Part shown: positions 14,558 to 64,000 of the stretch, piece after piece
Numbering within the stretch: the stretch's first letter is position 1
Layout: the number at the start of each line of letters is the position of its first letter
Assembly: GCF_000612665.1 (NCBI RefSeq)
Contig: NZ_HG942076.1
Coordinates: 62,001-126,000, forward strand
DNA from: Neobacillus dielmonensis
GTDB taxonomy: Bacteria > Bacillota > Bacilli > Bacillales > Cytobacillaceae
Direction: 5' to 3'
Length of the DNA: 64,000 bases
The notes under the pieces: generated by a model
Told to the model about the DNA's origin: nothing
Seen by the model: the letters and a program-made list of their open reading frames with translations, nothing else
Database searches by the model: none
Made by a program: the position numbers and the translations under genes

Positions 14558-14569
14558 ATCGGCTCCCTC

Positions 14570-16508: not shown

Positions 16509-16524
16509 AGCTTAAATGAGTAAC

Positions 16525-16563
16525 AAAAAAAGAAAATGGAACTTAACCCATTTTCTTTTTTTT
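16525..16563 (+). terminator. Terminator or attenuator between repressor and carnitine genes
   Basis: Perfect 15-bp stem A7GAAAATGG / CCATTTTCTTTTTTT with an 8-nt loop and a T-run. It ends only 25 bp before the next ATG, leaving little room for a separate promoter, so partial read-through is possible. Confidence 0.8.
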
Positions 16564-16587
16564 ATCATTTTTTGAGGAGGAAAATAT

Positions 16588-17469: not shown

Positions 17470-17471
17470 GA

Positions 17472-18434: not shown

Positions 18435-18452
18435 AGTAAAGGGGATGACTCA

Positions 18453-18965
18453 ATGTCGCAGATGGAAAACCCGCTTCTAGTGGAAACGGTCCGTAGTGAG
18501 TGGATTGATTATAATGGCCATATGACGGATTCTGCGTATGCCAAGGTATTCAGCATCGCAGTGGATCAGCTGATGGTGGAAATAGGACTGGGGGCTGAAT
18601 TTCGGGAAGTTAATCAGTACTCCATTTACACGCTAGAGACGCACCTTTGCTATTTAAAAGAAGCACATGAAGGCCAGGAGCTGCGGATTAACTTGCAGCT
18701 GCTTGACTTTGATTCCAAGCGGATGCATGTATTTTTCACGATGATAAATCAGGATGGAGACTGGCTCGCAACCAGTGAGCAAATGCTGATGGGGATGAAC
18801 ATGAAAACTGGACGCCCTGCCCCTTTCCCTCCTAGCATCCAATCTCAGATCCAAGGACTGGTAGAACTCCAGCAAAACCTGCCAAAGCCGAAAGAAGCTG
18901 GCCGAAGAATTGGCTTAATGAAGCACAGTGACAGTTCGAGGCCACCGAAAAACAGTTCCATATAA
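18453..18965 (+). CDS. Thioesterase, probable betainyl-CoA thioesterase
   Basis: 170 aa hot-dog-fold acyl-CoA thioesterase (4HBT-like). Seen: SEWIDYNGHMTDSAYAKVFS (residues 12-31) with the catalytic Asp/Asn-Gly-His pattern, and YTLETHLCYLKEAHEGQELRI, followed by a longer, less conserved tail. Third gene of the carnitine cluster, 18 bp after the dehydrogenase gene. Inferred to hydrolyse betainyl-CoA to glycine betaine, the CdhB step in Pseudomonas. The AAAGGGGATG ribosome binding site lies just before the start. Confidence 0.83.
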   Translation: MSQMENPLLVETVRSEWIDYNGHMTDSAYAKVFSIAVDQLMVEIGLGAEFREVNQYSIYTLETHLCYLKEAHEGQELRINLQLLDFDSKRMHVFFTMINQDGDWLATSEQMLMGMNMKTGRPAPFPPSIQSQIQGLVELQQNLPKPKEAGRRIGLMKHSDSSRPPKNSSI

Positions 18966-18999
18966 AGGGAAATCTTATAGTTTTCCTAAATAACTAGAA

Positions 19000-19023
19000 T
19001 AGCCCCCATTGGGATGGGGGCTA
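19000..19023. terminator. Hairpin after the carnitine genes
   Basis: TAGCCCCCAT / ATGGGGGCTA, perfect 10-bp stem with a 4-nt loop, but without a good T-tract on either strand. It probably marks the end of the carnitine operon. Confidence 0.5.
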
Positions 19024-19105
19024 AAATCATTCAAGTTACAGAAAAATGTAGTGTCAGACAAACCCAGACTTGGAAGCTGTTCAAACAGATAGCAAAGATC
19101 GTATG

Positions 19106-49407: not shown

Positions 49408-49455
49408 AAATATCAGCCCTTTCCAATTGGGAGGTTTGTATGAAAAGCGAATTCT

Positions 49456-49477
49456 AATATACTACAAATGTAGTATT
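49456..49477 (-). promoter_or_regulatory. BlaI-type operator upstream of the PBP gene
   Basis: Near-perfect dyad AATATACTACAAATGTAGTATT, core 49460-49475, 48 bp upstream of the PBP start. Overlaps the probable promoter. Confidence 0.75.
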
Positions 49478-49528
49478 TGAGACTGAAAACGCCCAAAAAG
49501 GGAGGTTCATCCTTTCTGGGACTATTCT

Positions 49529-51322
49529 TTAATAAATTTGTTTATCATGCAGGATTTGCTTGGCAATCTCCGCAGCCTTGCTTCCTTGGGCCTGCCCATC
49601 CTGATTTTGAATATTGACGGCAAAATAGTAGCGGCTATCACCCTTTGTGACAAAGCCAACAAACCAGCCATTTACATTTTTTCCATTGATCATGCCGGTT
49701 CCCGTTTTTCCATATAATTGCCGATTGTTTTGCTCAGCAATGAAGATGGCTTGTTTAACCGCTTGAATATGTTCCGGTTTAAAGCCAAACTGATTTTTTT
49801 CAAATGCAGTTAATAGCTGTACCTGTTCAATCGGCGATATTTTTAACGAGGATTCCATCCAGTAGCCATCCAGCTTCCCTGACAAGTCCTCATTTCCGTA
49901 TTTTATCTTATGGAAGTACTCCTGCAGCCTGTTTCTCCCTATCTCCCGGTCGGTATTTTGGAAGTACCAATTGACCGAACGGCTGATGGCAGTGGATAGC
50001 GTTTGATTTTGGTTCCATTCTGGAATCGGGTGAACGGTTCCGTCCCAGTTCTGTTTATTGCTAGTTGGAGAAATCACATTAGATTCCAGTGCGAATAGAG
50101 CTGCATAAATTTTATAGGTGCTGTCAGGTGAAACCCTCTGTTCACTCATCTCCCGATTATAAATCTGATATTGGTTTTTAGTGGCATCATATAAAACAAA
50201 GCTGCCGTTGCAGCCATCAAAATAGGAGCTTAAATCTTCATAGACTGCATTTTTGCCGCTAAAATGATACACATCATCATGACTGGCAATAACAGATGTA
50301 ACCGGGGAAACCACTAGCACAACGATTCCTAAAATGGCACAAATGATTTTGCTTTTCCACTTCAATAAGGAAGAATCGCATGCGAAGCTGGCAATGCGTT
50401 GGATTCTCTCCTTGATTTGTGTTTTGGTCCCGCCAATTCCCGGGGCAAACTGTTCATAGGCCTGGTTGGTTTTTCGATCGGCAAACCGAATAATCGTATG
50501 CCCATACTCGATACAGCCGCTCTCATCCAAGAGATGGAGCACTGAAGCATCACAAGCCAATTCCCGATCGATTCGCATTCTTTTAATGGCATACCAGACG
50601 AACGGGTTAAACCAATATAGGATCCGTAATAGCCACATACCGTAGTTAACGAACACATCTCTGCTTTTATGATGATGCAGTTCGTGCAAAAATACATATT
50701 TTAATTCATTTAACGAGAATTCCCTTCTCGTTTTGCTTGGTAAAAAAATATAGGGCCGGAAAATACCCAACGTGATCGGTGAGGTTATATGGGAAGTCTC
50801 TCGCAGCCTGATGCTTCTGTTCACTCCAACAATCTGTTTACACGTTTCTAACAGTTCACTTATTTGTGGATTCGTAACCACGGCAGCTGATTTTTTGATT
50901 TGATAGATTTGATAGTTAGCAAAAACCGCTGCCCCTACAAAAAGAACCACTCCCATGACCCAAACTGCAAAAAGGATATGATAGACAAAATCTGGCGTTT
51001 GATTCACCGATACTGTGAAATCGTGCAATAAATCACTGTTGGGTGCCTGCGAGGCATCCCATCCGGTCAACGTTTCACTTTTCACTGCTCCGTCTTGATG
51101 AAAGAACAGCAGGCTTTTCAAATAGCGGGTTCCTTCTCCAAGGTGAGAATAAGTCCAAGGTAGGATGGAAGCCAGGATGGGAAAGAACAGAACATACCAA
51201 ATATGGTATTGGGATTTCACCGTCATATGGTTAATCAATAGCTTTTTTGTCAATAGAACCAAGAATATGAGGAGGGATACCACGATTGTACTTATTAAAA
51301 CTCGCAGCAAAATGGTATCCAT
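49529..51322 (-). CDS. blaR1: BlaR1-type beta-lactam sensor protease
   Basis: 597 aa. Seen: an N-terminal region with four membrane segments, the M56 zinc-protease motif HELHHH (~213-218) with the downstream RELACDASVL Glu, and a C-terminal class-D-like sensor domain with S401-T-Y-K404 (acylated by beta-lactams) and GKTGTG. Acylation activates the protease, which leads to loss of BlaI. The start overlaps the blaI stop by 1 nt (TAATG). Alternative name mecR1. Confidence 0.92.
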   Translation of the reverse strand: MDTILLRVLISTIVVSLLIFLVLLTKKLLINHMTVKSQYHIWYVLFFPILASILPWTYSHLGEGTRYLKSLLFFHQDGAVKSETLTGWDASQAPNSDLLHDFTVSVNQTPDFVYHILFAVWVMGVVLFVGAAVFANYQIYQIKKSAAVVTNPQISELLETCKQIVGVNRSIRLRETSHITSPITLGIFRPYIFLPSKTRREFSLNELKYVFLHELHHHKSRDVFVNYGMWLLRILYWFNPFVWYAIKRMRIDRELACDASVLHLLDESGCIEYGHTIIRFADRKTNQAYEQFAPGIGGTKTQIKERIQRIASFACDSSLLKWKSKIICAILGIVVLVVSPVTSVIASHDDVYHFSGKNAVYEDLSSYFDGCNGSFVLYDATKNQYQIYNREMSEQRVSPDSTYKIYAALFALESNVISPTSNKQNWDGTVHPIPEWNQNQTLSTAISRSVNWYFQNTDREIGRNRLQEYFHKIKYGNEDLSGKLDGYWMESSLKISPIEQVQLLTAFEKNQFGFKPEHIQAVKQAIFIAEQNNRQLYGKTGTGMINGKNVNGWFVGFVTKGDSRYYFAVNIQNQDGQAQGSKAAEIAKQILHDKQIY

Positions 51323-51711
51323 TATTTCTCTCCTTCTTTCTTTTCCCTCATGGACAAGATTTTCTTTAATTCCGATATATCTTCATTGGATAATTGATCA
51401 TTTTCAATAAAATTTAACACCATCGAATGGATCGTGCCGCCAAAAAACTGCTGCAAAAAGGACTTACTTTTTTGCTCCACATACTCGTGCTTTTCAACCA
51501 ATGAGGTATAAATAAACGCCCGGCCCGCTTTTCTGGCCTGCAACGCCTTCTTCTTGACCAGCCGTGACAGCAAAGTATGAATGGTATTCGGCTTCCAATC
51601 ACTCTCCTTCGCCAACCTCTCCACCACCTCAGGCGTCGAAATCGGCTCATACTCCCACACAACCTTCATCACCTCATACTCAGCCTCTGAAATCTGCGGA
51701 ATCTCCCTCAT
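51322..51711 (-). CDS. blaI: BlaI/MecI repressor
   Basis: Penicillinase repressor family. 129 aa: winged helix at the N-terminus (ISEAEYEVMKVVWEYEPIST, VERLAKESDWKPNTIHTLLSRLVKKKALQ), then a dimerisation helix region. The start ATG 51711 has AGGAGG upstream; in-frame extension above it is unlikely. It binds TACTACA dyads in front of blaI, the PBP gene and the beta-lactamase gene until BlaR1 signals. Confidence 0.93.
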   Translation of the reverse strand: MREIPQISEAEYEVMKVVWEYEPISTPEVVERLAKESDWKPNTIHTLLSRLVKKKALQARKAGRAFIYTSLVEKHEYVEQKSKSFLQQFFGGTIHSMVLNFIENDQLSNEDISELKKILSMREKKEGEK

Positions 51712-51727
51712 AATAGCCCTCCTGCTC

Positions 51728-51750
51728 TTACAACTGTAGTATTTATTATA
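51728..51750 (-). promoter_or_regulatory. BlaI-type operator and -10 upstream of blaI
   Basis: Minus strand TATAAT (about 51745-51750) directly followed by the dyad TACTACAGTTGTAA (51728-51741), so the repressor would block its own promoter. No good -35 is seen; the upstream sequence is a dispersed repeat. Confidence 0.65.
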
Positions 51751-51764
51751 ACACAAATGAAGCC

Positions 51765-52311: not shown

Positions 52312-52402
52312 GGAACCACAGGGACCACAGGGACGGTTCTACTGGCGTCTGGGTCGCCCCTTGGCCAAATAGTAGCCATTAGAACCGTCCCCCTGGAGTC
52401 CA
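52312..52402. repeat. Dispersed palindrome extending into a coding region
   Basis: AACCACAGGGACCACAGGGACGGTTCTACTGGC and, 30 bp on, GCCATTAGAACCGTCCCCCTGG form an imperfect inverted repeat. Bases 52339-52402 are read as the C-terminal end of the 534-aa gene, which stops inside the first core. Confidence 0.8.
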
Positions 52403-53943
52403 TTCCACAATGATATGTAGTCTTCTAATTTTTTGGTTACGTATTGTAGATAGAAAGATACCATGGTGTATGGATCGGCGATATCTTTTACGTCATAGCG
52501 ATTTAATGGTTGGATATGGTTTTTCCATTTTGTTAGGTCGTGAAGGATCAAAGGGATGTCGTTATGGTTTTTGACTTTTTCCGGGTCCATGATCCGGTTC
52601 GGAAATAAGGGAACATTCCACTTTGATACTTCTGAAACGACTACTTCCAGTTTTTCAAGTGCTTGTTTGACTTCCGTCTGGTGCTCTTCAAAAATGGAAT
52701 AGAAATCCTTTTCGACTTCTTCCCATTGATCCCCCCAGCTTAACCGAGCAAAATAATAACCATTCATTAACTGAATCTCTTTCCATGGATACAAAACGTC
52801 CCATTCTTTCGCATGTTCTTTCGGAACATAAGGAACAATTAAATTCACCAAATTTTCGATCCCCAGCTGATAAAACAGCTCGATATCTTCATGAATTCGG
52901 TTAAATAATGGCGGGAACAAATCGCCAAGCATAAAATGATCACTATAATACTCAAAGACGGTTAACTCTCTTTGCTTCATAGTGGCTGCATCGCGCCATT
53001 TTTGTAAGGCATTCATGGGTCGTGCTTCATTTGTGAAGGATTGTTGATAATTTCTGCCCCAATAAGCAAATAACGTATTCACCGATGATGAGCTTTCCAC
53101 CTCTTCCGTTAACTCTAACATTTTCCACGAAAGGCCGGCATTATAAGCGATATGTTCCACTTGTATATGTGGAAGCTGCTTTTGGATCTGTTCCGTAAAC
53201 GCCATATAACGAGCTAAAAAAGGCTGGTCATCCTCGATCCCAATATCAGCCGGCCATAATGATATTCTTTCAATCGAACTTGTTTCAGCACAATACTCAC
53301 TTATGGTGTGAATCATCCTGTCCTTCCAAGTATCATCTGCAAAGTTGATCTGTGTTTTTTCCGAAACAGAAGATTCCTTCAATAAATAGTGCATACTATG
53401 TCCGCCCAAAGTGATAGATAATCCACGTTTGGTTATCTCTTTTTCCACGATAGGCTTCACTTTATCCCATAACATAAAAGTAAAGAATAGTTCATTCACA
53501 TAATGCTTGGCTGCCCAGTCAATTAGCTGGACAAGAAAATCAGGATCATCATAGTTCTCAACAACCAAACCTCTTCGCTTCATTTTTCCTTTATGGATAA
53601 TAGGAACAATTTGTTGGTCATCAAAGCTAACTTTTTCTTTTGAAAAAAAATGAACCCACTTATACCCAAACCATTGTTTACAAACAGCATACACACCAAA
53701 AAGCACGGAACGGGGATTAGAACCAACAATATAAATCTCTTTTTCTTCCTGGATGACTTGAAAAGCATCATCTTGAAGTATAGGTTGTTCAATGAGTCCT
53801 TTATCAAAAAAATCTTGACCCATCCCTAATACAAACACATAATCGATGGGCTGCGGTACCCTTTCGGCATATTTGTGCAGCTCCTCTTTCGCAAATCGAA
53901 TAGGTGCTTGATCATTTAAAATAGTACATTTTATGGCAGACAT
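52339..53943 (-). CDS. DUF4838/GH67-like glycosidase-type protein
   Basis: 534 aa. The N-terminal ~110 residues have the GH67/GH20b-type pattern of helper domains (DYVFVLGMG, IYIVGSNPRSVLFGVYAV). The middle is a barrel-like region with RRGLVVENYDDPDFLVQLIDW and WPADIGIEDDQP. I cannot name catalytic residues or substrate. Last gene of a nine-gene run. The final ~19 residues, from LQGDGSNGYY to the end, are encoded by the dispersed repeat, so the native C-terminus is lost or extended. Confidence 0.65.
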   Translation of the reverse strand: MSAIKCTILNDQAPIRFAKEELHKYAERVPQPIDYVFVLGMGQDFFDKGLIEQPILQDDAFQVIQEEKEIYIVGSNPRSVLFGVYAVCKQWFGYKWVHFFSKEKVSFDDQQIVPIIHKGKMKRRGLVVENYDDPDFLVQLIDWAAKHYVNELFFTFMLWDKVKPIVEKEITKRGLSITLGGHSMHYLLKESSVSEKTQINFADDTWKDRMIHTISEYCAETSSIERISLWPADIGIEDDQPFLARYMAFTEQIQKQLPHIQVEHIAYNAGLSWKMLELTEEVESSSSVNTLFAYWGRNYQQSFTNEARPMNALQKWRDAATMKQRELTVFEYYSDHFMLGDLFPPLFNRIHEDIELFYQLGIENLVNLIVPYVPKEHAKEWDVLYPWKEIQLMNGYYFARLSWGDQWEEVEKDFYSIFEEHQTEVKQALEKLEVVVSEVSKWNVPLFPNRIMDPEKVKNHNDIPLILHDLTKWKNHIQPLNRYDVKDIADPYTMVSFYLQYVTKKLEDYISLWNGLQGDGSNGYYLAKGRPRRQ

Positions 53944-53971
53944 CTAGACAACTCCTTACTCGACCTTTACA

Positions 53972-55813
53972 TCAATCTAGCAGCGACTGATCCAATTCCT
54001 TCAATAGTAGCCCCGACAAGATAATCGCATTCGTCCAACCGCTTTCTATGACATACGCTCCCCAGCCGGTATCACCATTGTTGCCAAAATACTCACCACG
54101 ATCTAGGTGAAAAGAACGCATCCAGCCACCCTCAAATTCACGTCTTGGTGAAGAAATTTGAATGGAAGCGACAAATTGAACAATTTTTTCATGAAAATCT
54201 ATGAAACTAGGATTAAGTGTGGCTTTCACTGCTTCCCACGCATTTACACATAAGAAATTATTGGTATATAACTGATCCGCAATGCCTTCGTGATTCAACC
54301 GAAAAACACCCGTATCTTCCGTGCCATAGCGTTCGGGATCTGGATTATCGGCTTCCTCAACTCCACCGAGTGGATGTTGATGTTGGGACAAATAATCCAT
54401 CACTTCCTCTAACCCGTTACGGATAACTTCATCTTTTGTTATCGAATAAACCTGGGCCAATGATAATAAAAATCGGCTATACCCGGCTGTTTTGCTATAC
54501 ATGAACTTCAGTTTCTGTTTATTTTCCAACAACGTTAACGTGCCCTTATAGGCTGCCTGCAAAAATGCTTCATCCTTTGAAACCAAATAGGCTTGCAGGA
54601 AGGCAGCATGAACTATCGCTTCGAAATGAGGATTCATGCTCGCTTCCGTTGAATTCCGAAAATAGGATGTTCCTTTTTCCACTAGCTCTCTTTCTCGGAT
54701 ACATTCCGGACGCAGTCCATTTTTATTTTGCGTGTTTAATAGGGCATATGCCGTTAGCAGACCTCTTTTTTTATATTCCTCATTCCCTGTTTTTCGATAA
54801 AGATATAATAAAACAAGCGCCACCCAGCTATTATCATCTGAAAAGATTTGATCTGGCTTACTCCTTGGGCTCTGAAACCACTTCCAAAAACCATATGTAA
54901 CCGAATGAGGATCATCATCCTGATACCCCGCATCAAACAAATAGTTTAGTAAACGTTCCGACATGTTCTTCCACTCAAGATTCTTGGAATATTCTCCATA
55001 CAAGTGAAACAGTAATGCGGTATGGGCATGACAATCAGGTCGTAAATCTTCGCTGATATTCCCTCGAATCGAGTGAACATTTTCATAAACGCCAAGGCTT
55101 CCATCCTCACTCGGCAAAATACCAGATTGTAAAAACCAATTCACACCTTTTTCAATGGTTTTTCCCATATCGGTACCTTCCGAAGTTTGAATAACATGAA
55201 CCATTTGCTTTAATGGCAAACCATAATCCTTTTTCAGCCATTTCACCACATCATTCCACAGCCAGTTCGGGCGCAATGTCCACTTTTGTTGATTGCCTAA
55301 AAAGGAAAAAGTAGAAAAAACCGCCTTCCCTTCCCCATGATGTTTTACAAGGATTCCTGGATATTCCCCTTCCTCTTCTGCCTGATGCGTTTCTTTAAAA
55401 TGACCAATATCGATTAATCGTTCCGTATCAAATGGTAACCCGGTTAAAAAAGGCCCTTGCCATTCGAGCAGCTGGCCTTTTTGACAATAGAGATTGTCGC
55501 TGGCAATAACTAATTTCTCCAGACGACGATTGGTCACAGCGAAATCTTGCTTGAATCCAAACAGCCGGGATGTAGGGAAATCCTCACAATTTATAAGTTC
55601 CCCGTACAGTGTCCCGCCTTGCTCTACAAATTCCCACAGTTTTTCTATTATGTCATAAGGCAATTTCAATGGTCTCCCGTTGTCATTGCCATTGATGATA
55701 ACAAACTCATACTGTAATAGATTTTTATCGATTAACTCCTCGGGATGGGAAAAATGGTCTGTGAAGTTCACAAACTGTTCCATTTGCTTGCTTTTGTCAA
55801 CCAGAGCGATCAA
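53972..55813 (-). CDS. Large hypothetical, glutaminase-fold plus toroid-like domains
   Basis: About 613 aa. Residues ~1-210 look like a ThuA/GATase-type alpha/beta domain (VIINGNDNGRPLKLPYDIIEKLWEF, EQGGTLYGELINCEDFP). The rest is helical, with repeated Trp/Tyr-rich segments (DDNSWVALVLLYLYRKTG, FLLSLAQVYSITKD) typical of (alpha/alpha)6 toroid sugar enzymes. A longer reading from 55864 overlaps the FAD gene; I prefer TTG 55813 with GGAG 8 nt upstream. Probably a glycoside hydrolase, lyase or epimerase; unassigned. Confidence 0.65.
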   Translation of the reverse strand: MIALVDKSKQMEQFVNFTDHFSHPEELIDKNLLQYEFVIINGNDNGRPLKLPYDIIEKLWEFVEQGGTLYGELINCEDFPTSRLFGFKQDFAVTNRRLEKLVIASDNLYCQKGQLLEWQGPFLTGLPFDTERLIDIGHFKETHQAEEEGEYPGILVKHHGEGKAVFSTFSFLGNQQKWTLRPNWLWNDVVKWLKKDYGLPLKQMVHVIQTSEGTDMGKTIEKGVNWFLQSGILPSEDGSLGVYENVHSIRGNISEDLRPDCHAHTALLFHLYGEYSKNLEWKNMSERLLNYLFDAGYQDDDPHSVTYGFWKWFQSPRSKPDQIFSDDNSWVALVLLYLYRKTGNEEYKKRGLLTAYALLNTQNKNGLRPECIRERELVEKGTSYFRNSTEASMNPHFEAIVHAAFLQAYLVSKDEAFLQAAYKGTLTLLENKQKLKFMYSKTAGYSRFLLSLAQVYSITKDEVIRNGLEEVMDYLSQHQHPLGGVEEADNPDPERYGTEDTGVFRLNHEGIADQLYTNNFLCVNAWEAVKATLNPSFIDFHEKIVQFVASIQISSPRREFEGGWMRSFHLDRGEYFGNNGDTGWGAYVIESGWTNAIILSGLLLKELDQSLLD

Positions 55814-55829
55814 GCCATCCACTCCATTC

Positions 55830-57410
55830 TTAAACTTTATGAATCTTTGGCCATTCCAATTCAATGCCTGCTGCTGTCAACTGGGACTGGAAATCCTTTA
55901 AAATTGGTGCTTGATTTCTCACCTCAGAGGGAATGATTTTTTTATCAATGCAATAAGAAGCTAAATGTCCTGCCGCTTCACCGATATTCCACTCCACAGG
56001 ATGAAGCCGGTAACAGCCATTGGTCAAATGGGTGGTTCCAATATTTTTACTCGCAGGCAGTAAATTCCGCACTCGTACGGGAATCAAACTGCCGAGCGGA
56101 ATTTGAAAGGGATGGGCAGCGATATCAATGTAACTATTCATTCCTGTACTTGGATGCAGATCCAAACGATAACAGCCAATTCCTACACTATCTTCAAAAA
56201 ACGTGGCTGTATCCTTCCCATCGACTTCCCCACTAATATGCTGCTCTTTCACGGTGAATTCTGCTTGAATTCGCCTGGATTCCCGTATATAGGGATACAT
56301 AGCCAAACCATCCTCCGTACCCAGAACATCTTTCCTTAACCGAAGTCCAGGATAGCCAGTGCCGCCATCTGGCCGAGGGGCTTCGGTCTGCATCCAATAA
56401 AGTAAAGATAAGCTTAATTGTTTCGCATTATATAGATGCTTTTCTCTTTCTTCATCCGGTACATCTATAATCGGCCCCAGCCAATAATCATTTTGCGGCC
56501 AATTGACAATGGTCACGTCACTTTGAAAAGTCCCCGGGGCAAAATTGGTTTGATCAATAATTCGGCGATAATTCCATAATGAAAAACGATTGGGTTCATA
56601 AAAAAAGGAATATTCAATTGGCTCCAATGTATGGGGAACAAGTCCCCACCAGCTCAATTGTTTGGTTGGCCAAAATGGCGCCTGATAGTCCTTCCAAAAC
56701 TCATATTGAGCAGGTTTTTCGATGGTATGGTCTTCCCCTTCGAGATAATCCATCGCAAAACAATAAGTAAAAGCCTGCATATTAAAGGGTTCTGCCTCCC
56801 CATTAACCGCGTGGTCTTCACCTGTTTCTGCCTGTGACTCGGCTCCAATGACATATTCCACATTGGCAAGTGGCAATACATCTCCAGTTTCCGTTGCATC
56901 CAAATAGTACTTTCCCGTTAAAAACAGTGAATCTCCAGTTAATACACTGCACACCGTAAGGCCAAGTACATCGTCATTTTCTGTTTCTGCCTGACTTATT
57001 TTGTATCCCAATAAAATGGTGAGCTTGCCGCTGCTCAAATAAGGAGCAAACAAATCATACAGAACACGCAATGATACTCTTGGTTCATGACTAATACTGC
57101 TTACGATCGCATTACCAGGATTAAATGGAGGGTTGTTCTCTTGGCTATGATTCACTGGATAGTTAGCAAAATAATAGTCTCTAATTTTTCTTCGGAATGT
57201 TCGGTAATTTCTCGTCGCACCGAAACTTTCGATCCATGGATGTTCATCGGGCGGCACTCCTTGATTGGTAATCTGACCGCCAATCCAATTTGTTTCTTCT
57301 GTTAAAAGTACTGTTTTTCCAGTTTGCAGTGCAGCAAGTGCCGCCGCACATCCGCCAAGACTGCCGCCAATAATGACCAGATCTGCAGATCGTTCTTGTG
57401 AAGCCGTCAA
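55830..57410 (-). CDS. FAD-dependent oxidoreductase (FAD_oxidored type)
   Basis: About 526 aa. Seen: an N-terminal dinucleotide-binding motif VIIGGSLGGCAAALAAL with TEETNWIGGQITNQGVP, a family signature of PF12831 proteins, and a late DATETGDVLPLANVEY. Members act on sugars or sugar-derived acids in many glycan loci. I start at TTG 57410 with GAAGGGG 8 nt upstream; GTG 57419 is the alternative. Gene is 16 bp before the following gene in the operon. Confidence 0.85.
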   Translation of the reverse strand: MTASQERSADLVIIGGSLGGCAAALAALQTGKTVLLTEETNWIGGQITNQGVPPDEHPWIESFGATRNYRTFRRKIRDYYFANYPVNHSQENNPPFNPGNAIVSSISHEPRVSLRVLYDLFAPYLSSGKLTILLGYKISQAETENDDVLGLTVCSVLTGDSLFLTGKYYLDATETGDVLPLANVEYVIGAESQAETGEDHAVNGEAEPFNMQAFTYCFAMDYLEGEDHTIEKPAQYEFWKDYQAPFWPTKQLSWWGLVPHTLEPIEYSFFYEPNRFSLWNYRRIIDQTNFAPGTFQSDVTIVNWPQNDYWLGPIIDVPDEEREKHLYNAKQLSLSLLYWMQTEAPRPDGGTGYPGLRLRKDVLGTEDGLAMYPYIRESRRIQAEFTVKEQHISGEVDGKDTATFFEDSVGIGCYRLDLHPSTGMNSYIDIAAHPFQIPLGSLIPVRVRNLLPASKNIGTTHLTNGCYRLHPVEWNIGEAAGHLASYCIDKKIIPSEVRNQAPILKDFQSQLTAAGIELEWPKIHKV

Positions 57411-57433
57411 TTTATTCACCCCTTCATTTTCAG

Positions 57434-57483
57434 GACGCCTGTAAAAGCAATCAAGGAACTATTATTTAAGTTTTACAGGCGTC
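57434..57483. repeat. Inverted repeat over the end of the first Gfo gene
   Basis: Perfect 13-bp arms GACGCCTGTAAAA (57434-57446) and TTTTACAGGCGTC (57471-57483) with a 24-nt loop. The second arm is inside the last codons (KTPVK) of the Gfo/Idh/MocA gene. A likely intercistronic mRNA hairpin. Confidence 0.7.
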
Positions 57484-58436
57484 TTCTTTTCATGAGACTG
57501 ATAGGCTGCAAGTGCAACTTCAACCGCTTTCATACCGGAATGGCCTGTAGCCAGAGGCGCTCTTCCTTCTCTAATACTGTTAACAAAGTCTTCGATTAGT
57601 CCTGCGTCCATATCGTCGCCCCAGCCAATCCACTGGACACCATCGGAATCAGAATATAAATCAATCTTTTGGGAAAAAGCGTCTACCTTTAGCGTTCCAT
57701 TGGTTCCGATAATCTCGAGTGTGACATCGCCCCATGTCGGATAAGAACGATTCCTAGACCAGCTGCAATCTAATGTAGCAAACATCCCATTGGTAAATTC
57801 CATGGTAATAATGCCACAATCATCAATTGGTTGATTGGTATACACACTGCCAATTTCAGCGTAAACCTCATTTACTTCGGCGCCTGTGAACCATCTGATA
57901 ATATCGACCACATGGACGGTATGATCAAGAACCGCTCCACCGCCAGATTTTGCTTTGTCAATAAACCAGCCGCCAGGGTTCGTTCCACGGTTTGTTCCTT
58001 TGATGGCCAAAATTTCGCCGAGCACGCCCTGATCAATCATCTCTTTAGCCTGTTGAATCGGCGTGTTAAACCGAACAGGAAAAGCGGTTCCTAACAACAC
58101 TTGGTTTTCTTCACAAACGGTGATCATTTCTTCCATATCGGCTAGATTGGTCGCCAATGGTTTTTCACAGAGTACATGTTTGCCAGCCTTGGCGGCAGCC
58201 ACCACATGTTGATGATGGAAACTGTTTTCTGAGGTAACGATTACGGCATCAATATCGGTTTGTAGCAAATCTTGATAATTTTTAAAATAGGCTGTGTCAA
58301 AAAGCTGAGAAGCCTGTTTGCCTCTCTCTTCGTTATCATCGGCGATTCCTGCTAGCGTGACACCTTCCATTGCTTTCAATACGGATGCATAACTATTGGC
58401 ATGCATATGGGCAAAACTGATGATGCCAATTTTCAT
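57462..58436 (-). CDS. Gfo/Idh/MocA-family oxidoreductase A
   Basis: 324 aa NAD(P)-dependent sugar dehydrogenase type: Rossmann start KIGIISFAHMHANSYASVL, CEKPLA (the conserved EKP with catalytic Lys), then the C-terminal beta-sheet domain (GAVLDHTVHVVDIIRWFTG with active-site His). Overlaps the second Gfo gene by ATGA, so they are coupled. Paired enzymes of this kind often make and reduce 3-keto-sugars. Substrate unknown. Confidence 0.9.
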   Translation of the reverse strand: MKIGIISFAHMHANSYASVLKAMEGVTLAGIADDNEERGKQASQLFDTAYFKNYQDLLQTDIDAVIVTSENSFHHQHVVAAAKAGKHVLCEKPLATNLADMEEMITVCEENQVLLGTAFPVRFNTPIQQAKEMIDQGVLGEILAIKGTNRGTNPGGWFIDKAKSGGGAVLDHTVHVVDIIRWFTGAEVNEVYAEIGSVYTNQPIDDCGIITMEFTNGMFATLDCSWSRNRSYPTWGDVTLEIIGTNGTLKVDAFSQKIDLYSDSDGVQWIGWGDDMDAGLIEDFVNSIREGRAPLATGHSGMKAVEVALAAYQSHEKKTPVKLK

Positions 58437-59446
58437 AGCAGAACGCCCCCTTCACGGCCCAACGATACTGGTAAGCCGGTTTTTAATGATTGAAGTGCAG
58501 CTACTGAAATTTCCATGGCTTTATAAGCATCTTCCGCTGAGACAATCGGCGTTGCATTTGTTTTTAAACAGGTTAAGAAATGCTCCAGTTCAATCGTATA
58601 AGGTGTTTTTTTCAAAGGACTTTGGGGAACGGCTACACCGCCGCTGCTCTTTGCTTTCGATTGTTTCATAGAAAGAAGCACAGGCTCTTCTTTTAAGCTA
58701 TCATATTCAATGATGCCGGTTTTTCCGGCAAATTCAAATTGTGTCGAAAAAGTCTGATGGGCCCAGGTTCCCTCCACATGGGCAATCACCCCAGATTGAA
58801 AGACTAACGTAACCAGAGCATAATCAAGGTGTTCGATGTTTCGTTCAGCAAGACCTTTCGCAAATACGCGGTCCACTTCTCCAAAGTTCCAGCGCAAATA
58901 ATCAAAATCATGGATCATTAAGTCAAGGATGACCCCGCCGCTTTTCGTATGGTCTGCATACCAATCACTCCAGCCTGCAGGAAATTCTCCTCCCCGTCTT
59001 GTACGAACGACCCCAATCTCGCCAATCGTTTCATTGGCAATCAACTCGTGTACTTTTGCATATTGCGGGAAAAACCGCACCACATGACCAACAAATAATT
59101 TCACCTGTTTTGCTTCACAGTAATCAATCATTTCTCGTGCGTCTTCCAATGTATAAGCCAAAGGTTTTTCGCAGATGACATGGATTCCATAATCAGCCGC
59201 TTTCATCACATATTCTTTATGCAAATAAGTAGGAACACAAATATCGATGACATCAATATGTTCCAGGGTGTTTACGGCTTCGTCCAAGGTTTGAAAAAGC
59301 TTTGTATCATGCTGACCAATGATTTGTTCCGCTTGTTCTTTTCTCAAATCGACAATTCCTGCTAAATGAACATCTTCCATAGAATAATAGGAAGCAGCAT
59401 GTTCCATTCCCATTGTTCCTGCACCAATCAATAAAATTTCTTGCAT
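58433..59446 (-). CDS. Gfo/Idh/MocA-family oxidoreductase B
   Basis: 337 aa paralogue: ILLIGAGTMGMEHAASYYSM, VICEKPLAYTLEDA and GGVILDLMIHDFDYLRWNFG carry the same three motifs. Its stop overlaps the start of oxidoreductase A by 4 nt. The two may act as a dehydrogenase pair on different intermediates. GAGAAAGAGG ribosome binding site. Third gene after GH20 and GH1. Confidence 0.9.
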   Translation of the reverse strand: MQEILLIGAGTMGMEHAASYYSMEDVHLAGIVDLRKEQAEQIIGQHDTKLFQTLDEAVNTLEHIDVIDICVPTYLHKEYVMKAADYGIHVICEKPLAYTLEDAREMIDYCEAKQVKLFVGHVVRFFPQYAKVHELIANETIGEIGVVRTRRGGEFPAGWSDWYADHTKSGGVILDLMIHDFDYLRWNFGEVDRVFAKGLAERNIEHLDYALVTLVFQSGVIAHVEGTWAHQTFSTQFEFAGKTGIIEYDSLKEEPVLLSMKQSKAKSSGGVAVPQSPLKKTPYTIELEHFLTCLKTNATPIVSAEDAYKAMEISVAALQSLKTGLPVSLGREGGVLL

Positions 59447-59473
59447 ATGATTAGCCCCTCTTTCTCAGCCTAT

Positions 59474-60817
59474 TTATATTTCCATCCAGCCATTTGCGAT
59501 GACTTTTTTATACCAGTAGTAGCTTTCCTTTTTCTTTCGCTCCAATGTTTGAAAGTCTACATAAACAAGACCAAACCGTTTTCCATAGCCTTCTGCCCAT
59601 TCAAAATTATCGAGTAACGACCATGCCAGATAGCCGATAATCGGGATTCCCGATTCAATCGCTCGGCTTACCGCTGTTAAATGCTGTTGGTAATATTTTA
59701 CTCGGTTTTGGTCCATCACTTTTCCATTCACCAGTTCGTCCCTACAGCATGCCCCGTTTTCTGTAATAAATAAGGGAATAGGTCCATAGCGTTCGGCAAG
59801 ATAATGAAACACCTTATAGAGACCGTCTGCATAGATCGGCCATTCGATATAGGTTTGGTCATAATCGATTTCAATGTTTTCAATATCCAATAATCCAGTG
59901 TCTTTTTTATAACGAGCAACGTTTCCGGAATAATAGTTGACTCCGATGAAATCAATCGGCTGCTGAATGATTTCCATGTCACCCTCTTCGACATGGAGCT
60001 CGGCCCCTTTGTTTTTAAACCACTCAACCAAGTATGGAGGATATTCCCCTTTGAAAATCGGGTCGAGAAACCAGTCAATATTATGACCAATCTCCCTCCT
60101 GCAAGCCTCCATGTCTTCCGGTTTCTGGCTAAATGGTTCCCTCCAGGTTGTATTCGTGGCGGTACCGATTTGACCTTCTATCCCCAAATCCCTAAATAAC
60201 TTGACTGCTCTTCCATGTGCTAAAACTAAATGATGCGATACATCAACGGCTAGCTGCAGGTCTGTAAATCCGGGTGCATGAACACCTTGATAATTTGATA
60301 AAAAGGCCGCACATAATGGCTCATTAATTGTTTGCCAATATTTCACTTTTCCATTAAATTCGCTAAAAATCGTTTCCGCATACTGACTAAAAGCATCAAC
60401 CGTGTCTCGATTTGCCCAGCCGCCTTGATCCTGCAGACTCTGCGGGAGATCCCAATGATACAGGGTAAGCATTGGTTCGATTCCTTTTTCCACTAATCTA
60501 TCAACCAGTTTATGATAATAGTTCAACCCTTTAGGATTGAGTTCTCCTGTTCCGTTCGGATAAATCCTTGGCCAGGAAACAGAAAAACGATACACCTTCG
60601 CCCCTAATTGGTCTAATAAATCAATATCCTCTGGATAACGATGATAGCTATCACATGCGACATCGCCGTTATCTCCATTTTTCACATTTCCTGGAGTATG
60701 GGAAAAGGTATCCCATATCGATAGACTTCTCCCATCCTCGAATGCCGCACCTTCTACCTGATAGGCAGCTGTAGCCGTTCCCCACTTCATATCTTTTGGA
60801 AACTGAATAATTGGCAT
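59474..60817 (-). CDS. GH1 beta-glucosidase-type glycosidase
   Basis: 447 aa full-length GH1: WGTATAAYQVEGA at the N-terminus, acid/base in TINEPLC, nucleophile in LFITENGA, and C-terminal LLDNFEWAEGYGKRFGLVYVD. It hydrolyses beta-glucosides or beta-galactosides; the phospho-specific signature is not visible. GGAGGG before ATG overlaps the GH20 stop. Cytoplasmic, no signal peptide, so it acts on imported oligosaccharides. Confidence 0.93.
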   Translation of the reverse strand: MPIIQFPKDMKWGTATAAYQVEGAAFEDGRSLSIWDTFSHTPGNVKNGDNGDVACDSYHRYPEDIDLLDQLGAKVYRFSVSWPRIYPNGTGELNPKGLNYYHKLVDRLVEKGIEPMLTLYHWDLPQSLQDQGGWANRDTVDAFSQYAETIFSEFNGKVKYWQTINEPLCAAFLSNYQGVHAPGFTDLQLAVDVSHHLVLAHGRAVKLFRDLGIEGQIGTATNTTWREPFSQKPEDMEACRREIGHNIDWFLDPIFKGEYPPYLVEWFKNKGAELHVEEGDMEIIQQPIDFIGVNYYSGNVARYKKDTGLLDIENIEIDYDQTYIEWPIYADGLYKVFHYLAERYGPIPLFITENGACCRDELVNGKVMDQNRVKYYQQHLTAVSRAIESGIPIIGYLAWSLLDNFEWAEGYGKRFGLVYVDFQTLERKKKESYYWYKKVIANGWMEI

Positions 60818-60829
60818 CTGTTTGCCCTC

Positions 60830-62710
60830 CTAAAGGATATTGCCTGCTGTAGCAATCCGGTGGTAGAAGTGGTTGCCTAAAGAGCCTTCAGCGATTCCAT
60901 TGGGTCCATCATGCACCAGCCGCTCTGCTTCCAACTCTTCTATGATGGCGATTTGATTTTCTATCCATTGGTGAATTCGCCATTGTGCCGTTTCCATCCG
61001 GGCGATTGCTCCGCCATAGCGAAGCTCCAATACTTCCCAGCCAAATGGTTTATATAAGGAAAACCATACGTCCCTATGCTTGTGCCGTAGAACCCCGACC
61101 TCTTTGGTCAGTTGTTTCACTTCTTCCAAAAGAGAGGCCATTTTTTCTTTATCCTTAAGATCATAGGCAGCCTTTAACTGGATGCCCATTTCTGCTTTTA
61201 CACTTAAAACACGAGCTAATTGTTCGTAGAACTCAAATAAAGATCGTGCGTTAGGGTTTCTATCTTTGGCAGCATGTAAAAGGGGAACAAGTTTTTGATA
61301 ATGCTCATTCATGTTTAGTCCACGAATATTTTCATCAAATAATCCAAGCAGTAAATCCTGCCACAACAGAAACTTTGAAGCATTGGACGAGCGTAAATTA
61401 TTTTTCATAACGCCCGGGGTTTCATCTAATTGGTTGAATAGAAGAAAATCATCTAACTGATTGCCCGTACTGAAATGGAATCGTTCTGCTAAATGAGCTT
61501 TGTTCACTGTTTGATGGTAAGTGTGTTCAGCAAACAACTGAATGACAGGCAATGCAGTAGTAAGTGGGGTTTCTGCTCCATTATCTCCCCATAGTGTAGT
61601 GAAAACTTCTTGGATGCCTTCTTTTTTGCATGCCGTTAAAGCCGCTTCCGTCGTCGCAAACGCTCTTCCATAGTTGGGTGATATCCCATTCCATGTCCAG
61701 GCACCGCCAGCAAAAACAGTCTCTCTTCCCAATTGTTTATGCTTCTCAAAATAAGTGCGATAAAATGCCTCGTCTTCATGATAGTAGTCCCAATAAACAA
61801 GCTGAACATTTTCTGGTATGGAATCAATTGCTTCCTGAGGAATATTGACTTCCGAATCATAATATTCCCCATCCTTAGAGCCCAATCGGAAGTACATATC
61901 GCTCCAAATCATCGGTTTCAAACCATGCTGCTCGGCAATGGACACCACTTGGCTTAAGTGCTGGTTCATAATCTCAAATCGATTTTGATAGCCATTTTGA
62001 TCTAAATAACGTCCTAGTCCAAGCTGATGGGCTTCATCCATTCCAATATGAATTCGTTTCGATTTAAATGGCCTTGAAGCAGCCTCAATCATACTTTCAA
62101 TAAACTGATAGGTTTTCGGTTCACCGACTAGTAAAATATCAGCGGTGTCTCTTATGTTGGCAGCATAGCCCCATTTCAATGCCATCGTTAAATGGGCCAG
62201 GGTTTGAATGCAGGGGATCATTTCAATTCCAAAGCGATCCGCATATTCGTCACATGTTTTCAGTTCGGATTCGGTATACCTACCACGCATATAGCCGAAA
62301 TACGGATAATCCGGAACTTCATAGGTATCTTCTGTGTACAGCATGACGACGTTTAATCCCATAATGGCCATTTTCCTAAGCAGCCCTTTTACTTCATCCA
62401 CTTTTAATACAGCATTTCGAGAAGCATCCAGCATCACACCACTGGTTTGAAATTGAGGCTGTTCTGTCAGTTCAAATTCGCCAAGCTTTGTGTATTTCTC
62501 TACCCATAAACCAATCGCACGAAAAAAGTGAATTTTATCCTGATAGAAAATCTCGCCTTTACCGTCTTTGTTGCGAACCTGGATAGGACCGACCCGTTGC
62601 GTGACTGAAATCGGGTATCCCGTTTCTGTTAATTGTATGTTCAATTCTTCCGATAAAGATTGTAAACCCATCAATATGGAATTCGTTTCACCCAATAAAT
62701 GAATTTGCAT
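60830..62710 (-). CDS. GH20 hexosaminidase, GcnA-like
   Basis: 626 aa. The GH20 barrel runs about residues 85-400 with GVMLDASRNAVLKVDEVKGLLRK (barrel entry) and the catalytic Asp-Glu pair in IHIGMDEAHQLG, then TTLWGDNGAE. A long helical C-terminal domain follows, as in GcnA-type enzymes. It removes terminal beta-linked GlcNAc or GalNAc. GAGG ribosome binding site. A perfect 26-bp palindrome lies just upstream. Substrate inferred only from family. Confidence 0.85.
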   Translation of the reverse strand: MQIHLLGETNSILMGLQSLSEELNIQLTETGYPISVTQRVGPIQVRNKDGKGEIFYQDKIHFFRAIGLWVEKYTKLGEFELTEQPQFQTSGVMLDASRNAVLKVDEVKGLLRKMAIMGLNVVMLYTEDTYEVPDYPYFGYMRGRYTESELKTCDEYADRFGIEMIPCIQTLAHLTMALKWGYAANIRDTADILLVGEPKTYQFIESMIEAASRPFKSKRIHIGMDEAHQLGLGRYLDQNGYQNRFEIMNQHLSQVVSIAEQHGLKPMIWSDMYFRLGSKDGEYYDSEVNIPQEAIDSIPENVQLVYWDYYHEDEAFYRTYFEKHKQLGRETVFAGGAWTWNGISPNYGRAFATTEAALTACKKEGIQEVFTTLWGDNGAETPLTTALPVIQLFAEHTYHQTVNKAHLAERFHFSTGNQLDDFLLFNQLDETPGVMKNNLRSSNASKFLLWQDLLLGLFDENIRGLNMNEHYQKLVPLLHAAKDRNPNARSLFEFYEQLARVLSVKAEMGIQLKAAYDLKDKEKMASLLEEVKQLTKEVGVLRHKHRDVWFSLYKPFGWEVLELRYGGAIARMETAQWRIHQWIENQIAIIEELEAERLVHDGPNGIAEGSLGNHFYHRIATAGNIL

Positions 62711-62739
62711 TTGTACTACCTCATTTCACGTGTAAATAT

Positions 62740-62765
62740 GACCCATTGTATCGATACAATGGGTC
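62740..62765. promoter_or_regulatory. Perfect 26-bp palindrome in front of the GH20 gene
   Basis: A perfect 26-bp palindrome with 13-bp arms GACCCATTGTATC and GATACAATGGGTC. The central TTGTATCGATACAA has the centre-CG form of LacI-type operators. It lies 30 bp upstream of the GH20 start and 21 bp after the dehydrogenase stop. It could equally be a terminator or processing hairpin. No regulator gene is in the window part of the cluster. Confidence 0.55.
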
Positions 62766-62786
62766 AACTTATTTCTCGAAACTTCG

Positions 62787-63791
62787 TTACTTAAAGCAAA
62801 TAAGCTTTGTAAGTGTCGTAGATTCCTTATTAAACAGTTTTTCAAACTCTTGCGGCGCTTGATTAAATTCAATTACCTCTGTAATGAATGGTTGAACATC
62901 AACCCGTCTTTCTTTGACAAGCCGAATATATTCCTCTACATTTCTGCCTTCCGTCCAGCGAACATATTCATACGGATAGTCAATCGCTTCTTTTTCATAT
63001 ACATGGTCATACCGGCCAGGACCGCCTGCTCGAGAAATCAACAGCTCTGCTTCTTTCGCAAACATTAGCTCTCTTGGAAAATCCGGTTCAACATCGCCGA
63101 CAATAACAGCCTTCCCTTTATTGCGGATCCATTTCAAACATTCTTGTGTCAGCGGCGAACGTTTCCCCCCCGCACATAATAGCACGGCATCAGCTCCACG
63201 GGATTTGGTCTCAATCCGTATCGCCTCTTCCATTTCCTCAACCGTTGAATAGGCTTTAATGGATTCTCCCTGCAGCATATCAACCCGGCTTTTATGTAGA
63301 TCATAGGCAATGACATTGTAGGCAGCAGCATGGGCGATTTTTGCAATTAATTGTCCTAAAACGCCTAACCCGACAATAACTGCTGTTTCACCAAATTGAA
63401 GGTTGGCAATCCTTAGTGCATGGATTGCAATGGCGCCAAGTCCCCCAAGAGCTGCTTCCTTAGGGTCAACAGATTCAGGAACTTTTGCATAAAGCGTGCT
63501 AGGAACTAACAAATATTCATCATGGTGAACATATGGAGCCCCATAACAGGCAACCAAATCCCCTTTTTTCACATCGGTGATCTTACTTCCGCATTCCACT
63601 ACTTCCCCCATTGCACTATAACCGAGATGAACCTGCTTATTTTCACTATTTGATAGAATTGTAAGTTCTGTTCCTGGTGAAATGACAGAATACAACGTTT
63701 TGACTAATATATAGGAAGGTTTTCCTTCTATCTGTGGTATCTCGTCTTCAATAATTTCAATCTTCTGGTTGTGCGCTACAATTCTTTTCAT
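62787..63791 (-). CDS. MDR-family dehydrogenase lacking zinc Cys
   Basis: 334 aa medium-chain dehydrogenase/reductase: GroES-like part (LGYSAMGEVVECGSKITDVKKGD), then NAD-binding AVIVGLGVLGQLIAKIA. The usual zinc-ligand CGICGSD is YSVISPGTEL, so the catalytic Cys is absent and the enzyme may not use zinc in the usual way. Such enzymes are frequent next to Gfo/Idh/MocA genes. First complete gene of the cluster after the lyase. The gap to the lyase gene is 21 bp. Confidence 0.87.
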   Translation of the reverse strand: MKRIVAHNQKIEIIEDEIPQIEGKPSYILVKTLYSVISPGTELTILSNSENKQVHLGYSAMGEVVECGSKITDVKKGDLVACYGAPYVHHDEYLLVPSTLYAKVPESVDPKEAALGGLGAIAIHALRIANLQFGETAVIVGLGVLGQLIAKIAHAAAYNVIAYDLHKSRVDMLQGESIKAYSTVEEMEEAIRIETKSRGADAVLLCAGGKRSPLTQECLKWIRNKGKAVIVGDVEPDFPRELMFAKEAELLISRAGGPGRYDHVYEKEAIDYPYEYVRWTEGRNVEEYIRLVKERRVDVQPFITEVIEFNQAPQEFEKLFNKESTTLTKLICFK

Positions 63792-63812
63792 CCGAACTCT
63801 GCCTTCCGTCTA

Positions 63813-64000
63813 TTATTTAGCGAACCACTTGGATAAATTGGCTTTGACAAATTCATCATCCTGTAAGTGTGGGTAGCTAGCATAAATCCGATCCAGCTCT
63901 TCTGCCTGACCAGGACTTAGTACTTCACGGTCAAGCAAACACCAATTTCCTTGTAACAATCCTTGTCTTGCCAATATTTCATTAATGCCAGCAATACTTC
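63813..64000 (-). CDS. DHDPS-family lyase, partial
   Basis: Only the C-terminal ~62 residues are present; the gene continues past the window edge. Seen: INEILARQGLLQGNWCLLDRE, LSPGQAEELDRIYASYPHL, and the closing KANLSKWFAK, typical of dihydrodipicolinate synthase family aldolases (N-acetylneuraminate lyase/sugar-acid aldolase group). It would supply the aldol or retro-aldol step of the cluster. The catalytic Lys lies outside the window. Confidence 0.8.
   Translation of the reverse strand, partial: SIAGINEILARQGLLQGNWCLLDREVLSPGQAEELDRIYASYPHLQDDEFVKANLSKWFAK

Follow-up and report, generated by a model that had tools for sequence, protein, structure and literature searches.

The window analysed here, 64,000 nucleotides at G000:C64:62001-126000 in the 4.56-Mb genome of Neobacillus dielmonensis, ends in nine tightly packed minus-strand genes (52339-64000), eight of them complete open reading frames and the ninth, for a lyase of the dihydrodipicolinate synthase superfamily (DHDPS), represented by its 3' end. 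These genes are part of a real, conserved sugar-catabolic locus of Bacillus relatives, and their clustering is not due to chance, since 11 of the 12 other genomes carrying the locus preserve its gene order. We put at about 50% the probability that the locus takes up and degrades an oligosaccharide of N-acetylated amino sugars including N-acetylmannosamine (ManNAc), for which we infer the substrate, the order of the steps, their locations and the reactions alike. The gene neighbours of TOR_B, one of its two large proteins of unfamiliar sequence (the other is DUF_A), suggest that this protein links the locus to ManNAc metabolism. The locus is best filed among the amino-sugar catabolic loci, with a widespread module formed by DHDPS and an SDR gene. 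The initial annotation of the window had described a compact minus-strand nine-gene cluster that matches no known pathway. The cluster is borne out, with DHDPS only partly inside the window, and the judgement on novelty is upheld, as a literature search, with subscription papers mostly outside its reach, found no publication describing this gene set.

A match to DUF_A was found in 13 of the 193 genomes of the family, the window genome included, and the locus is present in 12 of the 192 others, in one of which (G081) it is rearranged. In the remaining 11 siblings the order is DUF_A-TOR_B-FAD_C-GFO_D-GFO_E-(GH1)-(GH20)-MDR-DHDPS-SDR-/REG/-GFO_S-ABC2-ABC1-SBP, where the stretch examined in G019 stops short of the binding protein gene (SBP). 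GFO_E, DHDPS, SDR, the regulator-like gene (REG) and GFO_S are missing at the G081 locus. The core of the locus consists of redox genes, with FAD_C, GFO_D and MDR in all 12 siblings and GFO_E in 11, whereas GH1 is present in 7 and missing from 5, and GH20 is present in 9 and missing from 3. The exo-glycosidases, previously thought central, are thus accessory, and an operon centred on GH1 and GH20 was dropped as an explanation. The initially suggested stepwise oxidation of a beta-linked disaccharide is conceivable. The sibling operons contain extra genes for the ManNAc-6-phosphate 2-epimerase NanE (3 of 12), a ROK kinase (6 of 12) and NagA (6 of 12), and at least one of these occurs in 10 of the 12. 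These genes were recognised by eye and one representative of each was tested against profiles; the NanE (E 6e-92) and NagA (E 2e-98) representatives are both over their NCBIfam cut-offs. With these genes and the NanE linkage described below, the suspected involvement of an amino sugar appears likely. An ABC importer and a regulator gene of the locus itself, found in the DNA past position 64000 where the initial annotation had proposed to look, support the catabolic character that it had assigned to the cluster.

The evidence for ManNAc comes from the surroundings of TOR_B. We scanned a collection of one genome per species with a TOR_B alignment, requiring that either of two short peptide motifs be present, so that distant relatives are missed, and obtained 36 loci, all from Bacillaceae, Paenibacillaceae or near relatives. 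For comparison, we used 33 SDR-DHDPS loci without TOR_B nearby, 13 from Paenibacillus genomes with TOR_B elsewhere and 20 from a sample of the class. Neighbours were counted at identity limits of 35% for NanE, 33% for ROK, 33% for NagA, 40% for SdaAA and 38% for M20. Of the 36 loci, 14 have NanE at most 10 kb from TOR_B, as compared to none of the 33 comparison loci, and all 14 NanE genes share the strand of TOR_B. In five loci (L057, L059, L067, L074 and L075) the two genes adjoin directly, with gaps of -120 to 28 nt between mechanically assigned starts, and the four adjacent NanE proteins that were scanned (L067, L057, L075 and L074) pass the Pfam NanE cut-off. Among the 20 divergent loci (<65% identity in TOR_B), NanE was found in 12, as compared to 0/33 (Fisher p 5e-7, relatedness ignored). 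The odds that we give to the ManNAc reading rest on this contrast.

Other amino-sugar genes follow the same pattern. ROK proteins of at least 33% identity are near TOR_B in 15/36 loci and NagA at the same limit in 14/36, as compared to 0/33 for both, and FAD_C is near TOR_B in 28/36 loci versus 2/33. A GH3 protein of the NagZ type occurs in 8/36 TOR_B loci; the best NCBIfam match of the one tested was beta-N-acetylhexosaminidase, which it reached at 160 bits, short of the cut-off of 207. The genes are ordered NagA-NagB-TOR_B-NanE-ROK in Jeotgalibacillus (L075), with NagB above its cut-off, and SBP-ABC-ABC-TOR_B-NanE-ROK in the shortest locus, on a 9-kb contig of a Gracilibacillus metagenome-assembled genome (L067). 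NagB was not discriminating (1/36 TOR_B loci versus 2/33 comparison loci), nor was MDR after removal of close relatives (2/20 versus 4/33).

Several observations weigh against the ManNAc reading. NanE, ROK and NagA are all missing from the operon in the window itself, and NanE was not found within 10 kb of TOR_B in 22 of the 36 loci. The Fisher tests take no account of shared ancestry. The L067 contig stops right after ROK, and the SDR-DHDPS-MDR-FAD_C genes are on another contig of the same genome, so that the shortness of this locus may be due to the contig end alone. The ROK contrast hinges on the identity limit, since ROK proteins of 25-29% identity occur in 5/33 comparison loci, and a ManNAc kinase role of ROK is tentative, since the sibling representative falls below the cut-offs of all kinase models, NanK included. 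The excess of NagA is mostly due to close relatives of the window, with 3/20 among the divergent loci, and a NagA-like gene of 33% identity lies on the opposite strand of the comparison locus L224. DUF_A is nearly restricted to the group of the window, being present in only 2/20 divergent TOR_B loci. Weak Pfam matches of the TOR_B family are spread over GH88, pectate lyase and GH127, with the TOR_B of the window below the GH88 cut-off. Finally, DHDPS orthologues are found in 42 of 398 Bacilli genomes, as compared to 2 of 398 for TOR_B, and this much wider occurrence implies that the DHDPS half of the locus is not specific to this glycan.

Two NanE genes are encoded in the window genome, on contig C46. 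A second amino-sugar cluster on this contig (L095, G000:C46:86000-105000) contains one of the two, together with ROK, an RpiR-type regulator, two AXE1-family esterases and a DUF4127 protein, and by eye also an ABC importer, Gfo/Idh genes and TIM-barrel isomerases.

Structure predictions had been suggested for the two large proteins and yielded a glycosidase-type fold for DUF_A and a barrel for TOR_B; the statement that they have no assignable role was too strong, given the fold of DUF_A and the gene neighbours of TOR_B. The AlphaFold2 model of TOR_B has a mean pLDDT of 68.2, with residues 281-500 mostly above 75 and a poorly modelled N-terminal third. Residues 230-630 are predicted to form an (alpha/alpha)6 barrel similar to the sugar 2-epimerase 3vw5 (Z 28.6), GH76 (27.2) and GH88 (26.8), in agreement with the earlier description of the protein as toroid-like. 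TOR_B shares the core fold with these barrels and differs from them in having no clear sequence membership, some 225 additional residues at the N terminus and the linkage to NanE. Two alignments were used, one of 12 of the 13 orthologues (A2, with one dropped that was split over two stretches) and one of 27 rows (A5), the latter containing the window protein and 26 of 37 TOR_B reading frames after omission of near-duplicates, L061, L077 and the split L076. In hhalign comparisons, TOR_B matched the epimerase (AGE) family, represented by seven proteins, at E 2e-4 and GH76, represented by two, at E 1.3e-3, although these profiles differ in depth and their E-values give no firm ranking. A profile of nine GH88/105 proteins gave a match of only 45 columns (E 0.005).

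We considered each of these families for TOR_B. Although 14 of the 27 members match GH88 (best E 2.4e-6), an unsaturated glucuronyl hydrolase of this type was rejected, as the window member is below the Pfam cut-off and the hhalign match was short. For GH76, Asp343-Asp344 is invariant in 27/27 rows and aligned to the DD of the two GH76 proteins, which we take to be the catalytic pair. However, DG replaces DD in one of the three distant relatives that cover the site, only one of the 27 members matches PF03663 (E 0.0021; none for the window member) and the AGE profile scores better, so that GH76 was rejected as well. The only invariant histidines in the 27 rows are H264, H413 and H419, and the aligned TOR_B sequences have no histidine in the GHxIE-like stretch; a histidine pair is presumably catalytic in N-acylglucosamine 2-epimerase. 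A 2-epimerase that converts N-acetylglucosamine (GlcNAc) to ManNAc was set aside by reasoning alone, as being pointless beside NanE. TOR_B is the likeliest ManNAc-releasing enzyme of the locus. Distant TOR_B relatives were also seen in other classes of the phylum (L236, L237, L238 and L239); Gfo/Idh-like genes lie beside them in L236, L237 and L238, and the last also has FAD and D-2-hydroxyacid dehydrogenase-like genes.

The DUF_A model (mean pLDDT 80.6) is most similar to the GH84 O-GlcNAcase 6rhe (Z 20.8, rmsd 4.9 over 416 residues), nearly tied with GH115 (4c91, 19.8) and GH20 (2epo, 19.6), while Foldseek places GH115 first; these fold matches are at 6-13% identity only. For the window protein, searches gave no Pfam family and, at E <= 1e-3, no sequence in the PDB. 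Of the 13 members of its alignment, DUF4838 matched 3 (best E 5.3e-7), NAGLU_N 4 and GH67N 1. The earlier assignment to DUF4838 therefore has weak support, which comes from these three members. DUF4838 corresponds to the GH163 endo-beta-N-acetylglucosaminidases, according to the available parts of a published study (PMC9870897). The domain layout and predicted fold, which are shared with GH84, GH20 and GH115, suggest that DUF_A is a glycosidase similar to these families. DUF_A-like genes (35% identity in L165, 37% in L212) and FAD_C-like genes (53% in L211, 55% in L212) are likewise found next to SDR-DHDPS at sites with no TOR_B in the vicinity.

In the route that we propose, the oligosaccharide would enter by the ABC importer of the locus and have sugars trimmed off intracellularly by GH20 and GH1, both accessory, and by the GH84/GH115-like DUF_A. 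TOR_B would act at a ManNAc residue, freeing it or making it available. A ROK kinase would phosphorylate ManNAc and NanE, provided here from contig C46, would convert the product to GlcNAc-6-phosphate, with NagA and NagB acting thereafter. FAD_C, the Gfo/Idh enzymes and MDR would oxidise a ring carbon to the keto form, enabling bond breakage or the removal of a substituent, and the 2-keto acid formed in this way would be cleaved by SDR-DHDPS into pyruvate plus a small N-acyl fragment.

As a special case of this route, the target may be a ManNAc-GlcNAc secondary cell-wall polymer or teichoic-acid linkage unit of other Gram-positive bacteria, which we regard as rather unlikely. The linkage unit of teichoic acids is ManNAc-GlcNAc, and the locus is carried by Bacillaceae, Paenibacillaceae and near relatives. 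Gram-positive bacteria use ManNAc to build wall polymers, and repeats with beta-ManNAc and GlcNAc are described for Bacillus and Paenibacillus polymers in the accessible sections of PMC6801904. However, no wall-binding or ketal-removing family was detected among the 21 locus proteins scanned with Pfam, and it is hard to see a role for GH1 and the redox set in the degradation of such a polymer. If TOR_B were an N-acetylmannosaminidase, an activity for which our literature search found no paper, it would provide a tool to open ManNAc-containing wall polymers and a way for bacilli to feed on them.

The redox genes allow for another explanation, in which an ordinary or C-linked plant beta-glycoside is cleaved via a 3-keto sugar and beta-elimination by the Gfo/Idh and FAD enzymes, with GH1 and GH20 as helpers and the amino-sugar genes of the siblings serving neighbouring functions. 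GH1 is a strong match to its Pfam family (607.1 bits, cut-off 22.6, E 2e-182) and exceeds the cut-off of the beta-glucosidase equivalog TIGR03356 (603.5 bits, cut-off 478.5). GFO_D matches DgpA2 (9m37, E 3e-30) and the glucuronide-3-dehydrogenase 8tdi (E 3e-13), and the BT_2158/BT_2159 glycoside 3-dehydrogenase models NF058563/NF058561 match GFO_D and GFO_E, although at 36-58 bits these matches are far below the cut-offs of 650/750. FAD_C belongs to PF12831 (FAD_oxidored, E 1.9e-96). A 3-keto route is possible for the redox set, yet as an account of the whole locus we consider it doubtful, given that GH1 is missing from 5/12 siblings, that the same-strand linkage to NanE recurs across several genera and that no DUF1080 domain was found among the 21 proteins.

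We know of no amino-sugar genes in the levoglucosan and beta-elimination pathways, with which the locus may be compared. As far as the consulted parts of PMC7676230 (levoglucosan) and PMC10628242 (O- and C-glycoside beta-elimination) go, both are Gfo/Idh-based sugar pathways in which, as proposed here, Gfo/Idh/MocA dehydrogenases make a keto sugar for bond cleavage; the locus differs in its partner genes and in that GFO_D and GFO_E are far below the equivalog cut-offs. Of the remaining enzymes, GH20 scores 51.3 bits for the catalytic domain (cut-off 22.3) and 224.4 bits for the GH20C C-terminal domain (cut-off 27), and MDR matches ADH_zinc_N (E 1.2e-8). The loss of the zinc cysteine from MDR, noted previously for the window protein, extends to all 12 aligned sequences (A6, 12 of 13 MDRs), which lack the zinc ligands and read SPGTE and GYS where we take the usual motifs to be CGTD and GHE.

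DHDPS matches PF00701 at 25.4 bits (cut-off 22.1), and K176 and Y148, presumably the Schiff-base lysine and active-site tyrosine, are invariant in 12 rows and aligned with the DHDPS lysine and tyrosine, in confirmation of the initial assignment to this superfamily. At the position of the motif GTTGE, usual in the superfamily, the protein reads HTTQFE. SDR accompanies DHDPS in 33 of the 33 DHDPS loci examined, and the two genes form an independent, second and wider module. SdaAA and an M20 amidohydrolase are each present in 15 of these loci: SdaAA follows SDR-DHDPS in 12 and M20 in 11 of the 13 Paenibacillus loci, as compared to 3 and 4 of the 20 class-sample loci (from 20 of the 42 DHDPS genomes). 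Neither is in the operon of the window. One SdaAB/SdaAA pair was tested and scores above the cut-offs for L-serine ammonia-lyase. In 13 of 14 Paenibacillus genomes SdaAA lies near DHDPS, and a search of 18 genomes (G243 was left out) gave a single SdaAA match in 17, such that the SdaAA beside DHDPS may just be the housekeeping L-serine deaminase. DHDPS was present in all 18 TOR_B genomes searched (18 of the 36 loci), a figure that lacks a base rate for Paenibacillus and is not used as support.

An acylase and a deaminase for L-hydroxy-amino acids beside a pyruvate-type aldolase point to an N-acyl-L-amino-acid-like intermediate. The gene set thus suggests that SDR-DHDPS, with Sda and M20, handles such an intermediate in a possible mirror of the ong pathway, and the DHDPS of this module, found in about 1 in 10 of the Bacilli genomes sampled, looks like part of a route for an acylated fragment. 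The ong cluster for oxidised chitin in Pseudoalteromonas is likewise amino-sugar catabolic and includes transporters, a regulator and a hexosaminidase, judging from the available portion of PMC9537276. According to the same portion, an N-acetylated sugar acid, N-acetylglucosaminate, is deacetylated and deaminated to 2-keto-3-deoxygluconate without prior phosphorylation, a chemistry that resembles the SDR-DHDPS-SdaAB-SdaAA-M20 set of Paenibacillus. While ong employs a D-aminoacylase, a pyridoxal-phosphate enzyme of the D-serine deaminase type, KdgK and an SSS transporter (PMC9537276, same portion), the genes considered here encode M20, an Fe-S L-serine ammonia-lyase, a DHDPS-type aldolase, Gfo, MDR and FAD enzymes and an ABC importer.

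By our own derivation, C2 of ManNAc is configured as in an L-amino acid and C2 of GlcNAc as in a D-amino acid; a ManNAc-derived acid would therefore need L-type enzymes, in contrast to the D-type enzymes of ong. As a long shot, TOR_B might found a new family of ManNAc-releasing glycosidases, and SDR-DHDPS, with M20 and the L-serine-type ammonia-lyase in Paenibacillus, might form an oxidative, phosphate-free route from ManNAc via N-acetylmannosaminate, mannosaminate and 2-keto-3-deoxygluconate to pyruvate and glyceraldehyde. In a variant, a retro-aldol reaction may yield N-acetylserine semialdehyde, which SDR reduces to N-acetyl-L-serine.

We consider it improbable that the locus serves sialic acids (nonulosonates), with DHDPS as a diverged N-acetylneuraminate lyase that yields ManNAc and pyruvate and with NanOx-like Gfo/Idh enzymes that act on anhydro-sialic acids. 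When the DHDPS sequence alone served as query, N-acetylneuraminate lyase 8u8w (E 5e-4) was the sole PDB match at E <= 1e-3, but with an alignment it tied (9e-4) with dihydrodipicolinate synthase (3.5e-4). For this DHDPS, the sialate lyase model TIGR00683 (cut-off 382) scored 20-28 bits in those genomes for which it was listed and did not reach E <= 1e-3 in the window genome. The one NanA match there (141.6 bits) is on another contig; 1 of 31 genomes tested has a match above the cut-off. RgNanOx (6z3b) is matched by GFO_D (E 6e-24) and GFO_E (E 1e-20), among many other relatives. NanE and DHDPS occur together in fused clusters (L048, L056, L059, L063 and L077), whereas in nine TOR_B loci with NanE the stretch examined contains no DHDPS, which is about 11-12 kb off in the same cluster in L057 and L075 and far off or on another contig in L064, L066, L069, L072 and L074, and NanE is missing from 33/33 SDR-DHDPS loci. 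Moreover, a NanA-like gene (198-394 bits) apart from this locus is present in 7 of the 13 family genomes, at about 5 kb or less from another NanE copy, and no sialidase was found among the 21 proteins. The NanE, ROK and NagA of the sibling operons fit the normal sialate route as presented in the consulted part of PMC7535918, and nan operons with NanOx described there can contain NanE, ROK/NanK, Gfo/Idh, a DHDPS-superfamily enzyme and an ABC importer, which can all occur in the present group of loci as well. The present locus differs in the lack of a canonical NanA, in the distant subfamily of its DHDPS and in the additional FAD_C, MDR, SDR, DUF_A and TOR_B. The sialic-acid cluster was demoted on account of the tie in the DHDPS alignment search, the NanE-free SDR-DHDPS loci and the NanA scores below cut-off.

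The intergenic gaps across the nine-gene run range from -35 to 76 bp: DHDPS/MDR 21, MDR/GH20 76, GH20/GH1 12, GH1/GFO_E 27, GFO_E/GFO_D -4, GFO_D/FAD_C 42, FAD_C/TOR_B -35 and TOR_B/DUF_A 28 bp. The value of -35 bp is based on the mechanically listed TTG start of TOR_B, and the real start may be further inside the listed reading frame. The locus extends for about 8 kb past the end of the window, with the genes that follow DHDPS at L003:1868-8762; there the plus-strand regulator-like gene sits between SDR and GFO_S, so that the minus-strand genes form two runs.

Table 1. Genes of the locus in the window and beyond its end. Window coordinates equal 63000 plus the L003 coordinate.
Gene	Position	Strand	Remarks
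DUF_A, 534 aa	52339..53943	-	TIM-barrel glycosidase-like; distant DUF4838 relative; predicted fold GH84/GH115/GH20-like
TOR_B, 630 aa	53972..55864	-	N-terminal part poorly modelled, predicted (alpha/alpha)6 barrel; NanE-linked in relatives
FAD_C, 529 aa	55830..57419	-	PF12831 FAD-dependent oxidoreductase
GFO_D	57462..58436	-	Gfo/Idh/MocA oxidoreductase
GFO_E	58433..59446	-	Gfo/Idh/MocA oxidoreductase
GH1	59474..60817	-	beta-glycosidase; accessory
GH20	60830..62710	-	beta-N-acetylhexosaminidase type with GH20C C-terminal domain; accessory
MDR	62787..63791	-	MDR-superfamily dehydrogenase without zinc ligands
DHDPS, 3' end	63813..64000	-	DHDPS-superfamily lyase; full gene L003:813-1868 (window-equivalent 63813-64868)
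SDR	L003:1868-2932	-	extended SDR
Regulator-like protein, 480 aa	L003:3031-4473	+	single Pfam match, GdpP-type GGDEF domain, below cut-off
GFO_S	L003:4539-5438	-	third and smaller Gfo/Idh
ABC permease	L003:5470-6276	-	
ABC permease	L003:6310-7266	-	
Binding protein (SBP)	L003:7494-8762	-	

The regulator-like protein has an unusual architecture with what by eye is a helix-turn-helix-like C-terminus, and its gene is near SDR-DHDPS in 27 of the 33 DHDPS loci. Farther along L003 are genes for a GNAT protein, a membrane protein, a second PF12831 FAD protein and very large propeller proteins, the last two at L003:11016-12611, 12870-14909, 14927-17974 and 18396-19979 (window-equivalent 74016-82979). 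The second PF12831 protein is present in 9/12 sibling loci and a 1015-aa propeller protein in 10/12; one of the large propeller proteins that accompany the locus has carbohydrate-binding (CBM_4_9) and FIMAH domains.

Just downstream of the operon, at 47362-51756 on the minus strand of the window, are genes for a penicillin-binding-protein transpeptidase, a BlaR1-type sensor that combines an M56 peptidase with a transpeptidase domain, and a BlaI-type repressor. The window genome is rich in GH88-family enzymes, with ten matches, nine of which are above the cut-off, and two of the ten are located upstream of the window on the same contig (G000:C64:35035-36027 and 50591-51550).

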